Source: Chrysoporthe austroafricana (taxonomy: Eukaryota > Ascomycota > Sordariomycetes > Diaporthales > Cryphonectriaceae). Taken from it: 64,000 nucleotides of DNA. Shown here piece by piece: positions 42,292 to 52,288 of the stretch. The notes below the pieces were generated by a model. It worked only from the letters and a program-made list of their open reading frames with translations. It was not told where the DNA came from and did not search any database. The DNA lies in NCBI GenBank assembly GCA_001051155.2, contig JYIP02000006.1:2294001-2358000 (forward strand). Direction: 5' to 3'. Positions within the stretch are counted from its first letter, which is position 1; every line of letters starts with the position of its first letter. The position numbers were made by a program, and so were the translations under genes.

Positions 42292-43424
42292 CAAGCACTC
42301 GAGAGACCTTTTATATCGGCGGCAAGTATGTCAAAAATAAAGACCAGAGCCACTCCGTGCAAGGGCAGATGTATGTCGAACATCTCAAGCCCTTTCCAGA
42401 CGATAAGCTGCAACCATATCCCATGATCTTCGTCCACGGTGGCACGCGGACAGGAGCAGTACGTCAAGCTAGCTGAAGGACATCCAGAAAGCGATTGGCC
42501 TCCATGAGGCTGCCAGGCTGAATGAAGCACTGCAGGACTGGCTCACCAAGCCCGACGGCAACCCGGGCTGGGCCGACTACTTCCTTTCTCACGGCTACGA
42601 GGTCTACCTCGTAGATGTGCCCTACCGCGGCCGAAGCGCTTGGAGTCCCGACGTCGAAGACGTGATTACCCTCTCGGTCGAGACGATCCAGGCGAGATTC
42701 ACTGCATGCGCTCAGTATGGCACCTGGCCCCAGGCAAAGCTGCACACCCAGTGGCCGGGCTCAGGCGTCAAGGGCGACCCGATCTTCGATCGCCTCTATG
42801 CCTCGGGCGTTCAGATGATACCCGGCCAGGTGAAGCAGGAGCTGGCGTCGCAAGCTGCCCTCGCGGCCTTGTTGGACCGTATTAAGAGGCCGGTGATCTT
42901 CCTGTCGCATTCCAACGGTGGCGGTACGCCGTACTTGGTGGCGGACGTCCGGCCTCAGTTGGTCAAACTGATTGTCTCTGTCGAGCCAAAGGGTCCGCCG
43001 TTCGGGCCCACCGGGGGCCTTGCCGACCTTCGGGTGCCAGTACGGCGTGTGCCAGGCACCCATCACGTATGACCCGCCCGTGGCGGATCCGGAGAAGGAC
43101 TTGGTCAAGGTGGTCAGGAACGCCGAGTCTCCGGACCTGCAGGATGCGATCCTGCAAGCTGAGTCGCCGACTCCACGGAAATTGGTCAACTTGACACGCA
43201 TCCCGGTGCTCGTGGTCACGGCTCCGGCCTCGTACCATGCAGGGTATGACTGGTGCACTGTTGAGTATCTGCGTCAGGCTGGCGTAGAGGTGGAGCATTT
43301 CAAGTTGGTGGAAAGAGGCATCCTTGGAAACGGTCATATGATGTTTATGGAGAAGAACAGCGATGAGATTGCGGCCGAGATAGATAGGTGGATTTGCGCA
43401 CGCACTGTTGAGGCTTCCGGTTGA
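42292..43424 (+). pseudogene. Alpha/beta-hydrolase gene with frameshift and no clear start
   Basis: The plus strand reads RETFYIGGKYVKN, QMYVEHLKP and PMIFVHGGTRTGA. A GTACGT...GCAG intron (42459-42535) follows, then DWLTKPDGNPGWADYFLSHG, VPYRGRSAW, QAKLHTQWPG, a nucleophile-elbow-like FLSHSNGG and VSVEPKGPPFGPT. The frame then breaks near 43000-43040, next to a run of five G, and continues in another frame as GCQYGVCQAPITYDPPV to GNGHMMFMEKN. That last phrase carries the probable catalytic His. This is the domain order of a known fungal alpha/beta hydrolase family of unknown substrate. The missing ATG exon and the one-base frameshift argue for a pseudogene. A base-calling error in the G run is the main alternative for the frameshift. 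Confidence 0.75.
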
Positions 43425-43454: not shown

Positions 43455-43469
43455 ACTATATAATATAGT
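43455..43469 (+). promoter_or_regulatory. TATA-like palindrome upstream of tRNA-Lys
   Basis: A perfect palindrome with 6-bp arms ACTATA/TATAGT contains TATATAATATA, about 30-40 bases before the tRNA start. An upstream TATA-like element is common for fungal Pol III genes, where it helps place TFIIIB. The role is inferred from position. Confidence 0.5.
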
Positions 43470-43533
43470 AAAACTCGGCGACAATTCCAAGAAGCCGCCC
43501 GGCTAGCTCAATCGGTAGAGCGTGAGACTCTTA

Positions 43534-43552
43534 CAGAGTTTCCGATTCTGAA
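43534..43552 (+). other. Canonical tRNA intron, 19 nt
   Basis: It lies directly after base 37, the place cut by the tRNA splicing endonuclease. It starts CAGAG, which can pair with CTCTT of the anticodon loop as such introns usually do. Confidence 0.8.
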
Positions 43553-43568
43553 ATCTCAAGGTTGTGGG

Positions 43569-43625
43569 GTATGTTTAGACCAGCACAAGACTTCTGCTTG
43601 ACATTGATTCTAACAAGCCCTCCAG
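43569..43625 (+). other. 57-nt spliceosomal-type intron inside a tRNA gene
   Basis: The insert begins GTATGT, has TTCTAAC with the branch A at 43613 (12 nt before the end), and ends CCTCCAG. This matches the introns of protein genes in length and signals. Exact removal restores GTGGG joined to TTCGACC. Because the flanking base is G, the boundary could slide by one, but only the placement given has GT-AG ends. Confidence 0.75.
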
Positions 43626-43665
43626 TTCGACCCCCACGTCGGGCTCAATTCCCGTCGAAGATCTA

Positions 43666-43670
43666 TTTTT
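43666..43670 (+). terminator. Pol III T-run terminator
   Basis: Five T follow the tRNA end by 20 bases, and another five-T run lies at about 43679-43683. T-runs of this length stop RNA polymerase III. Confidence 0.6.
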
Positions 43671-44079
43671 GCATTTCATTTTTGATTCCTGCTGCTTCTG
43701 TGCTAAGCTGGGCATGGCATTGTCTCCTGCTCCCTCTTTGGAGAATAAGGTCTACATATTCACGGTTGGGACCTTTTTTTTGCACTTGGTGGGCTCATAG
43801 AAAGAGTCATGAGGTGGAGGGTATTTCGAAAATCTCGATGAAAGTGGCACGCTGCGGACCCCTGTAAATCCTACCTAGCAGTGCCTGGCTGCAGCTCGAA
43901 TCAATTGCAGCATGATTGGCGCGTGTGGCCCGTGCTCCAAAAAATTACTGCAGAGCTCTCGAGTCGACTTCTCACCAGCACCTCGCGACGCCGCCCGACC
44001 GTGATCCCCTTCCCTCTTGGGCACATCCATCTCCTCTCCTTGTTGTTTTTGTGTGGTTGTCTCCTTTTCCTTCTCCACA
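43671..44079. other. Intergenic, TUF1 promoter and 5' UTR
   Basis: It ends in a pyrimidine-rich stretch (about 44025-44075) directly before the TUF1 ATG, a common feature of strongly expressed fungal genes. No other gene is seen. Confidence 0.6.
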
Positions 44080-49621: not shown

Positions 49622-52288
49622 ATGCCCCCTCCGCAACAAGAAAGCGCCCGCTTCCTCGCCGTCATCATAATATTCATATGGCTGATGAGCTCGGGCGGCG
49701 GGGGCCAGGGCGGATACTTCGCGACGCCCTTCCTCGCACAAGAGCGGCTCGCGCGGCAGCAACATTCGTTTGGCGTCCTCAACTCCACGGCCTGGGGCGA
49801 CTTCAATCCGCGGCAGGTGACGGATCCGCCGAACGGTACGGAGACGACACGGTATTTAAATATGACGGGCTTCAGGGAGGCAGACGGTTTTGCCTGGGAG
49901 GACCTGGGGCGGTTCAAGGACAGGTGTCTGGAATGGAGCCGGAGCACGAGTCCCTCGTTGCCGGCTAGGAGCGAAGCAGACGGGGTGCAAGGGAGCGACG
50001 AGAGAAGGGGGAGGAGCGCCTGGGACCTTGGTTTGGGCAGCGCTGTCTGGCAGAACGCGACGGGGGTCGTGAAGGGGTCCTGGGTCCGTCGCGAGGCGAG
50101 CGTGCGCCGCACGTGGGCCGACTACAACTTCACGGCCATGACACCGAGCGTCAACTGGGTGGGCACGCATGGCGAGTGGAACCGCAACCTCACAGGGTCT
50201 GAAGGCATGATTCAGCTCCGTGTGGACGACAAGCAGCGGCATATCGAGTACGACGATGAGGTTGTCGACGTTGAGCACGGGCGGCTGAGCACCGGAGGTT
50301 CCGTGCGCGAGGTCGCGGCGACCCTGACCGTCGAGGATGCCAGCCCGAACGGCAGCGGCGGCACATATGAGATGCGTCTGCACGGGGTGCACTGGCCGCT
50401 CCAGGGCAACATGCTGCTTACCACAACGACTGAGAAGTTCGCGGGGATTTTTGGCCTGCCGCATCTCGCGCCCGGTCAGAATTTCTTTCGGTCGAGTCAG
50501 AGATTGCTCAACCAGACAGTCCGAGAGGTCCTTGCCAAGAAGGAGAAGTTGACGTTCACAGACCAGAGCAACCCCTGGACGTCAAGTGTCGGCGGTGCCG
50601 AGGATGCGTTCAATCCGAGTCCGCATTGCGAGTATGTGGTCTACTTGCAGGTTCATCCATTCCGTCAGGACCGGCCGCCGCCGACAGACGGCCAGGAGGA
50701 TTCGGTCGATGGTATGCGTGATGTGGTCAAGGCAATCGAGGATGAACTGCGAGACCCTACAGGAGCGCCGGTACAACATATTTCGGAGTTGCAGATGTCT
50801 GCAATCATCTACTCGCCTGACTGCGCTTATTTCCTAGAGTCCGAAGGTCCTCCGGACTTTCTTGAGGTGCAGGGTTATAACCACCTGGTCGGCTTCAAAG
50901 AGGAGATATGGATATACGACGTCAACTTTGCCATGCTGGTGATGGCCGCCATCGCCTTTGGGCAGGTGCAGCTGCTCAAGTACCAGACGAGAGAGTCGTG
51001 TACTCCCTCTACCATGGGCCGGGTGAGTTTCTGGACTCTCATGGTGATGGTACTGGCAGATGGCATGATGTTCGCACTCTCGGCTGCGCTGGCCCTCGAC
51101 TCTACGCACTTCTACCTCCGTGCTCTCATGTTGACGTTTGCGTTGTTCATGTCCATGATGCTTGGCGGCAGCTTCTTAAATGAGGTATACAGGATCCAGG
51201 AGCCGGAATGGCGACCGCGCGAGCGTGAACATACCCCAAACAACAGCACACCAAGACCGCCGTCGACGCGAGTTCCTCCAGCAGGCGAAACATTGCCGCG
51301 CCCGGTCACCGCAGGGGTAGGAACGGGTCAAACAGATCTACCGATCATAGTACCGTCGGATCAGGATGTCGACGCGGAAATCGCCGAGAACCTGACAGCT
51401 GGTGCTGCCGCTGTCCCTACCGCGGGCATGCCTGGAACTGGCGCTCGGCAGTCAGGAGTCCTGCCGTTCTCTACAATTGTGGCTCGACTCATCTTCCTCG
51501 GCTCGGTCCTCGGCTTCCTCTCACTCGCAGCACGGTCGTGGTGGAAACCAGTACGAAACAGCTTCATCAATGCGACGCTGTTTGCCTACCTATCGTTCTG
51601 GACCCCGCAGATCATCCGCAATACGCTGCGCAACAGTCGCCGGGCTTTCTCATGGCACTTCATGGTTGGCCAGTCAATCTTGCGCATTCTGCCTGTTTCG
51701 TACTTCTACCTTCACCCGAACAACCTCATCTTCTCGGAGCCGGACTGGACAGCATTTGCCGTGTTGGCTGGATGGCTATGGGTGCAGGTCTGGGTCCTGT
51801 TTTTCCAGGACATCCTCGGCCCACGGTTTGGCATGCCAAAGGGCTGGTTGCCCGAGGCATGGGACTATCACCCCATCCTCCGTGAGGACAACCTCGAGAC
51901 AGGCGGCCTCCCCATCGGCCTCGCACCGTCCTCCTCTGCTCCGTCATCCCCCAGTCTCGGGAGAGCTCGTAGCATATCCATCAGCAGCGGCGAGGCAGAC
52001 CGCGCGGTCCGGGAGAAGGGCTCTAGCTCGCACATGGCTACCAAGGGAAGTAGCCGGATGCATACGCGGGCGATCGACTGTGCCATCTGCTGCGAGGTGC
52101 TCGAGGTCCCCGTCGTCAAGGCAGGCGAGGAGGTCGACCCGGCTCGCGGAGGGGTTGCGGGCCTGTTAGAGAGGAGAAAGTATATGGTGACGCCGTGTAG
52201 ACATATCTTCCACAGCCCGTGTCTCGAGGGGTGGCTCCGATACAGGCTGCAGTGTCCGATCTGCAGGGAGGAATTGCCTCCTCTATAG
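49622..52288 (+). CDS. Dsc1/Tul1-type transmembrane RING E3 ubiquitin ligase (888 aa)
   Basis: This is the catalytic subunit of the Golgi Dsc complex, which marks mis-sorted membrane proteins in budding yeast (Tul1) and is needed for SREBP cleavage in fission yeast and Aspergillus. A single exon begins with a signal anchor (RFLAVIIIFIWLMSSGG). A long lumenal domain with NST, NGT, NMT and NAT glycosylation sites runs to about residue 430. Several membrane helices follow (for example VNFAMLVMAAIAFGQVQLL, FALSAALALD, IVARLIFLGSVLGFLSLAA). The cytosolic RING at the C-terminus, from about residue 818, shows CAICCEVLE, then TPCRHIFHSPCLEGW and CPICREELPPL. A Ser-rich linker (about 760-800) separates it from the membrane part. 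Length matches the fungal family. Confidence 0.92.
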   Translation: MPPPQQESARFLAVIIIFIWLMSSGGGGQGGYFATPFLAQERLARQQHSFGVLNSTAWGDFNPRQVTDPPNGTETTRYLNMTGFREADGFAWEDLGRFKDRCLEWSRSTSPSLPARSEADGVQGSDERRGRSAWDLGLGSAVWQNATGVVKGSWVRREASVRRTWADYNFTAMTPSVNWVGTHGEWNRNLTGSEGMIQLRVDDKQRHIEYDDEVVDVEHGRLSTGGSVREVAATLTVEDASPNGSGGTYEMRLHGVHWPLQGNMLLTTTTEKFAGIFGLPHLAPGQNFFRSSQRLLNQTVREVLAKKEKLTFTDQSNPWTSSVGGAEDAFNPSPHCEYVVYLQVHPFRQDRPPPTDGQEDSVDGMRDVVKAIEDELRDPTGAPVQHISELQMSAIIYSPDCAYFLESEGPPDFLEVQGYNHLVGFKEEIWIYDVNFAMLVMAAIAFGQVQLLKYQTRESCTPSTMGRVSFWTLMVMVLADGMMFALSAALALDSTHFYLRALMLTFALFMSMMLGGSFLNEVYRIQEPEWRPREREHTPNNSTPRPPSTRVPPAGETLPRPVTAGVGTGQTDLPIIVPSDQDVDAEIAENLTAGAAAVPTAGMPGTGARQSGVLPFSTIVARLIFLGSVLGFLSLAARSWWKPVRNSFINATLFAYLSFWTPQIIRNTLRNSRRAFSWHFMVGQSILRILPVSYFYLHPNNLIFSEPDWTAFAVLAGWLWVQVWVLFFQDILGPRFGMPKGWLPEAWDYHPILREDNLETGGLPIGLAPSSSAPSSPSLGRARSISISSGEADRAVREKGSSSHMATKGSSRMHTRAIDCAICCEVLEVPVVKAGEEVDPARGGVAGLLERRKYMVTPCRHIFHSPCLEGWLRYRLQCPICREELPPL

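Follow-up and report, generated by a model that had tools for sequence, protein, structure and literature searches.

A candidate spliceosomal intron in the T-arm of a tRNA-Lys(CTT) gene of Chrysoporthe austroafricana

The tRNA-Lys(CTT) gene found in a 64,000-nt stretch of Chrysoporthe austroafricana DNA (contig JYIP02000006.1; the whole stretch is called the window below) is interrupted in its T-arm, between positions 53 and 54, by 57 nt carrying the donor, branch site and acceptor typical of a fungal mRNA intron. This insert is probably an old nuclear U2-type spliceosomal intron, which was duplicated together with the gene and would still be spliced out. Nuclear tRNA introns are held to be substrates of the tRNA endonuclease. 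We know of no nuclear tRNA gene with a spliceosomal intron, and none was reported in the titles and abstract beginnings of open-licence PMC articles among the matches listed. An mRNA-type intron in a gene transcribed by RNA polymerase III (Pol III) is of a known kind; the tRNA as the host of such an intron appears to be new.

The window gene matches the Rfam tRNA model RF00005 at 35.7 bits with the insert present (gathering score 29). All stems of the cloverleaf are paired, no non-standard pair is marked, and 64 letters stand at the place of the model's 7-base T-loop (Table 1). The ends of the insert are ambiguous by 1 nt (a G precedes it and a G is its last base), the GT-AG placement being the natural choice. 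Excision of the 57 nt from the window copy (L001) or from a second copy (L002) yields, letter for letter, the 92-nt gene of an insert-free paralogue (L004); insert-free paralogues with this identical body score 55.9 bits with the same model. The 5' half of the window copy is identical in L002, L004 and L005, and differs at two positions in L006 and at three in L003. The anatomy proposed in the sequence-only reading, namely a 57-nt insert with GTATGT, CTAAC 12 nt from its end and CAG, its exact excision restoring an intact tRNA, and a 19-nt tRNA intron at 37/38, is confirmed in all these points by the sequence, the RF00005 match and the comparison of loci.

Table 1. Features of the window gene (positions in the window) and the other tRNA-Lys(CTT) loci found in the genome
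Feature	Position	Strand	Basis or remark
tRNA-Lys(CTT) gene, window copy (L001)	43497-43645	+	Rfam RF00005 match and sequence
5' half (1-53) with the 37/38 intron	43497..43568	+	RF00005 match
3' half, positions 54-73	43626..43645	+	RF00005 match, locus comparison
Anticodon CTT	43530..43532	+	RF00005 alignment, sequence
Ordinary tRNA intron at 37/38, 19 nt	43534..43552	+	locus comparison
Spliceosomal-type intron (candidate) at 53/54, T-arm, 57 nt	43569..43625	+	sequence, RF00005, same junction in L002 and L003
Donor GTATGT	43569..43574	+	sequence
Branch site CTAAC, branch A 43613	43610..43614	+	sequence
Acceptor CAG	43623..43625	+	sequence
TATA-like upstream element TATATAATATAG, about 30-40 nt 5' of the tRNA	43457..43468	+	sequence
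A box TAGCTCAATCGG (presumed)	43504..43515	+	sequence
B box (presumed), re-formed as AGTTCGACCCC; the intron's last AG replaces positions 52-53	43624..43634	+	sequence
3' trailer CAATTCCCGTCGA	43646..43658	+	13/13 bases in L002, 12/13 in L003
T5 run, candidate Pol III terminator	43666..43670	+	sequence
L002	C21:2455258	+	insert-bearing, 57 nt
L003	C16:5225584	-	insert-bearing, 54 nt
L004	C20		insert-free
L005	C1		insert-free
L006	C19:1880240	-	insert-free

Simple arithmetic with equal base frequencies puts the chance of the insert's signals at about 4 × 10−6, which is the product of GTRWGT at the start (1/1024), YAG at the end (1/32), CTRAC 6–36 nt upstream (about 0.06) and two slides, since the tRNA fixes the ends of the insert with a 1-nt slide possible. 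Closely similar signals are kept in the second, diverged copy. The commonest fungal intron signals are given as GTRWGT for the donor and RCTRAY for the branch in the available portion of PMC5832005, from which the limits of 6–36 nt between branch and acceptor were also taken. The donor is GTATGT in the window copy and in L003, and GTAGGT, one base off GTRWGT, in L002. The branch site, lying at 12 nt in the window copy, is CTAAC there and in L003, and TTAAC, one base off CTRAY, in L002; each of the two L002 signals thus departs from the commonest form. The acceptor is CAG in the window copy and L002, and CAT in L003. Three candidate host introns joining long open frames in the window have lengths of 55, 68 and 78 nt and contain CTAAY, whose branch A precedes the intron end by 11, 11 and 19 nt; they remained from 509 candidate joins of open frames over GT-AG gaps of 45–99 nt after a donor, branch and YAG filter, which makes the sample circular for the motifs, and their gene models consist of open frames only.

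Six tRNA-Lys(CTT) loci were found in the genome assembly (48.15 Mb, 22 contigs, with the window lying in C19), the same six being returned by two DNA searches with the window locus and the insert-free gene as queries. The insert is present at exactly 53/54 in three of the six (L001, L002 and L003; 57, 57 and 54 nt). The insert-free copies L004 and L005 are identical at 92 of 92 positions and have intact bodies; L006 differs at positions 1 and 2, and its pair 1–72 is broken. ARAGORN reports no tRNA in the window and, whether its intron options are on or off, misses all three loci that carry the insert. It finds the three insert-free loci and calls their anticodon Val(TAC), presumably due to the unrecognised 37/38 intron. 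A genome-wide Rfam tRNA search, in which 63 of 1207 first-look candidates were scored, gave at least 57 tRNA matches, and the insert-bearing loci are not among the matches listed.

Comparison of the three inserts separates conserved signals from a drifted interior. The bodies of L001 and L002 show no differences over 92 positions (73 of the mature tRNA and 19 of the 37/38 intron). The 33 bases between the donor hexamer and the last 18 nt of the insert match at nine positions without gaps, and their alignment score is at chance level (1008 of 2000 single-base shuffles are as good). The last 18 nt, comprising branch site and acceptor, align so well that a single one of 5000 shuffles equals them. 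For the interior, L001 versus L003 is likewise at chance (470 of 2000 shuffles as good), and L002 versus L003 is somewhat above it (59 of 2000). Retained donor, branch site and acceptor around a drifted interior is, as far as sequence goes, the pattern of a functional spliceosomal intron, and it stands out clearly in a single comparison, that of the window copy with L002. The inserts appear to be homologous as well as old. The insert is most simply older than the duplication of the gene, because it is common to three loci and its interior is at chance level while the bodies of L001 and L002 are identical. In a dead gene the body should decay as well, and these identical bodies therefore argue against dead genes, although part of the identity could come from gene conversion.

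L003 differs in this respect. Its donor and branch site remain, its acceptor is lost and no AG is left between branch and exon; its body carries changes at 4 of 92 positions, all of them C:G to T:A, and gives no match to the Rfam tRNA model at E up to 0.1, as against 36.0 bits for L002. A killed copy, with its acceptor lost and its body beginning to decay, would fit these data, which represent one case. The alternative offered in the sequence-only reading, a freshly killed tRNA copy, therefore suits this paralogue and is not supported for the window locus, whose insert is old and whose body is identical to that of L002. Its other alternative was an intron gained by transposition or reverse splicing and still removable by the spliceosome, the intact cloverleaf being taken to speak for a recent insertion or for retained function. 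Removal by the spliceosome and retained function are what the data would best support; recency is not supported, given an insert common to three loci with an interior saturated between two copies of identical body.

The window gene is accompanied by candidate signals of Pol III transcription. The TATA-like element is assigned a putative role in Pol III transcription by analogy with Pol III genes, and the A and B boxes are what we take to be these elements from their known motifs. The B box would be split by the insert, yet kept readable by the intron's terminal AG. Five or more consecutive T stand 20, 22 and 24 nt downstream of the three insert-bearing genes (L001 to L003), counted from the discriminator, and 25 nt downstream of L006. 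The first T4 lies 170 nt downstream of L005 and 444 nt downstream of L004, the intact insert-free copies. In control tRNA genes (the best-scoring 30 of the 57 Rfam tRNA matches minus L004 and L005, n = 28) the first run of at least four T is found 0–63 nt downstream in 28 of 28. A T5 rule weakens the contrast, 24 of the 28 controls having such a run within 63 nt, three having it at 80, 99 and 143 nt, and one lacking T5 in 300 nt. L004 and L005 look poorly terminated; long trailers may be tolerated.

Some further features of the precursors were observed. The 5' leaders of L002, L004 and L005 self-pair through tRNA bases 1–2, with paired changes (GCGTC-TTCAA-GACGC in L002, GCGCC-TTCAA-GGCGC in L004), and this pairing is weaker in L001 and L003. 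Predicted folds of the full precursors contain the acceptor stem in L002, L003 and L005 and lack it in L001, L004 and L006, with no consistent logic. A weak match to RF02278 at 43721–43780 of the plus strand (27.4 bits, gathering score 50) is most likely due to chance.

Demand for the tRNA could be judged from the lysine codons of three open stretches in the window, read as DSC, EF-Tu and PDI genes, in which AAG occurs 50 times and AAA three times; tRNA-Lys(CTT) is therefore in demand. The neighbouring protein encoded at 49622–52285 is, by the names of its relatives, a subunit of the DSC E3 ligase. Its best relative is found in Cryphonectria parasitica (85% identity), and the next named relatives belong to Cytospora, Discula, Coniella and Diaporthe. 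All of these are Diaporthales, which very probably places the fungus in that order, close to the Cryphonectriaceae.

It is unlikely that every locus with an insert is a pseudogene, with gene conversion from intact copies keeping the bodies of L001 and L002 identical and the splice-like signals being leftovers. The visible decay of L003, which is without AG, and the presence of insert-free copies in the genome would agree with such an explanation. However, conversion acting across both halves of the gene should either carry or delete the insert, and what is found instead is identical flanks, a saturated interior and kept splice-signal ends. The T-run terminators also stand near the insert-bearing copies and far from two insert-free ones, contrary to what pseudogenes would suggest. 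Several intact tRNA-Lys(CTT) genes elsewhere in the genome had been named in advance as a sign of a simple pseudogene; this came out halfway, since two insert-free copies with intact bodies do exist, but their first T4 is reached only at the distances given above.

The 53/54 intron of tRNA-Ile(UAU) of Cyanidioschyzon merolae is generally assumed to be removed by a tRNA-type splicing endonuclease. By the same token, the insert in tRNA-Lys(CTT) could be an ectopic tRNA intron cut by such an enzyme, a reading which is quite improbable. According to the available portion of PMC9602550, the C. merolae intron occupies the same position 53/54 and occurs alongside a 37/38 intron, as here. The bulge-helix-bulge motif (BHB) of such substrates was looked for at both slides, in two topologies and in the three copies, with cuts after the second bulge base, and none was found with exact excision. 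In the usual topology no centre helix had more than 2 of its 4 pairs; in the other, L002 reached 3 of 4 on one occasion, and in no case did both outer helices form with it. This test is weak, since the ordinary 37/38 intron, taken as a control, gives 4, 1 and 2 of 4 pairs and does not satisfy the strict motif either. For the Guillardia theta nucleomorph, the accessible text of PMC3978253 describes ectopic tRNA introns that lack a defined BHB, so that absence of the motif alone is not decisive. Since the control fails and such introns exist, a better argument is the kept GT, TAAC and CAG: the retention of GTNNGT, TAAC and CAG would be left unexplained by an endonuclease. Unlike the insert considered here, the ectopic introns of C. 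merolae and G. theta are not described as GT-AG introns with a branch site in the parts of PMC9602550 and PMC3978253 at hand.

That the locus serves an RNA polymerase II transcript, whose untranslated region would include the tRNA-like sequence and whose splicing as an mRNA would remove the intron, is very improbable, and the neighbours are not the same from locus to locus: a same-strand open frame does end at 43424, 73 nt upstream of the tRNA, but L002 has no same-strand open frame of at least 110 codons in its 3.2-kb locus, the nearest same-strand upstream open frame of L003 ends 185 nt away, and the runs of at least five T come 20–24 nt after all three insert-bearing genes.

Two further origins were considered. 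A transposon or introner does not fit, since a 301-base query that contained the insert matched tRNA-Lys loci only (common words being skipped) and the three inserts share only their ends. Formation of L004, L005 and L006 from reverse-transcribed spliced precursors, which would be proof of splicing, is unsupported, target-site duplication being no more than expected by chance. L006 looks like an old gene because it shares with L002 a small trailer hairpin lying 5' of the T run, in which paired changes were recognised by eye (GTCGA-TAA-TCGAT versus GGCGA-TAA-TCGCC in the L002 and L006 trailers).

Pattern scans of the genome with the branch words TAAC and CTGAC and with four donor hexamers yielded no further tRNA with such an intron at 53/54. 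CTAAC before AGTTCGANNCC occurs at four places, one of which is the window locus. TAAC or CTGAC followed by AGTTCRANNCC occurs at 24 and 20 places, 44 altogether (74 and 13 for the reversed control patterns), and a fully paired T-stem strand stands directly before GT only in the window copy and L002. The donor scans with GTAAGT, GTATGT, GTGAGT and GTAGGT gave 3, 6, 3 and 4 places; two of these 16 are again the window copy and L002, and the remaining 14 were judged on the matched letters alone. L003 escapes the pattern scans due to its lost AG. A survey with an A-box pattern returned 19 places, the pattern being too narrow to count all tRNAs. Exact-pattern scans of public viral contigs (with the U6 pattern included) and genome contigs, the fungal genome collection lying outside this set, gave 0 matches. 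A SINE-like repeat whose head resembles a tRNA occurs in three copies (L093, L094 and L097, on C12 and C21), which by eye are alike over about 190 nt. Another place (L092, C12:1283100–1283300) has a tRNA A box and D-arm, the rest being unrecognisable, and yields nothing in Rfam up to E = 0.1.

Introns of the mRNA type in small structured RNAs are known from fungi, and one of the closest parallels is the U6 snRNA intron of Schizosaccharomyces pombe and other fungi, where a small structured RNA is likewise made from a Pol III gene with a short intron, which is spliced in the manner of mRNA; in the present case the host RNA is a tRNA and the intron lies in the T-arm. Canzler (2016) is said to be a survey of fungal U6 introns. 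The U6 gene of C. austroafricana (L039, near C17:1874463) itself has an mRNA-type intron of 64 nt (L039:1473–1536; GTGAGT...CTAAC...CACAG). Read by eye, it runs GATAC/GTGAGT ... CACTAACAGTTGTCACAG/AGAGAAGATTAGC; removal of the intron restores ACAGAGA, and the intron contains the B-box-like GTTCGAGTC. For the S. pombe U6 intron, reverse splicing near catalytic bases is proposed in the available portion of PMC10484740, a route not obviously applicable to a tRNA.

Fungal U3 snoRNA genes offer a second parallel. Within the accessible text of PMC5832005, they are described as containing GT-AG introns of 92 nt mean length, in which 15 nt on average separate branch and acceptor; some fungal genomes hold U3 copies both with and without the intron, and the introns of U3 paralogues are almost always very similar. 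The tRNA-Lys case shares the GT-AG intron in a structured RNA and the coexistence of copies with and without it. It differs in the length of the inserts (54–57 nt) and in the dissimilarity of the paralogue introns. As stated in that same portion of this 2017 survey, frequent interruption by an intron was so far known, among small structured RNAs, for U3 and U6 only, with no mention of tRNA as a further member (PMC5832005). The canonical nuclear tRNA intron at 37/38 is represented in the same gene, and the 53/54 insert differs from it in position, length and signals, as well as in the enzyme, the spliceosome being the one proposed for the insert.

RNase P, RNase Z and the tRNA endonuclease require the folded tRNA elbow. 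The spliceosomal intron would have entered the tRNA-Lys(CTT) gene long ago and then been duplicated along with it. RNA polymerase III would transcribe the gene with the help of an intact A box and of a B box readable through the intron's terminal AG. The spliceosome would cut at GTATGT and CAG via A43613, by which the T-arm would be closed; only afterwards would the three enzymes just named be able to recognise the molecule and finish it, and the 37/38 intron would leave late. This order is proposed because the later enzymes need the folded elbow. It is also proposed because in C. merolae removal of the anticodon intron follows that of the introns in the D- and T-arms, the processing mechanism being otherwise unknown as far as the available portion of PMC9602550 describes it. 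Transcription, splicing itself and the order of the steps are thus what we infer from the arrangement of letters.

The insert-bearing copies need not be essential, two insert-free copies being intact. Among the loci found, L001 and L002 alone combine an intact structure with a terminator close downstream, and for this reason decoding of the main lysine codon AAG may, tentatively, depend on the pre-mRNA spliceosome, in which case splicing capacity could set the supply of lysine tRNA and hence translation. If an old spliceosomal intron is indeed removed from this tRNA, tRNA would join the spliceosome's clients as a new RNA class, and tRNA supply would be tied to splicing. The gene would then serve as a natural experiment on whether splicing can be efficient in transcripts that come from Pol III and carry no cap. 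Counts of tRNA genes could also be too low, as the three out of three insert-bearing loci missed by ARAGORN would illustrate.
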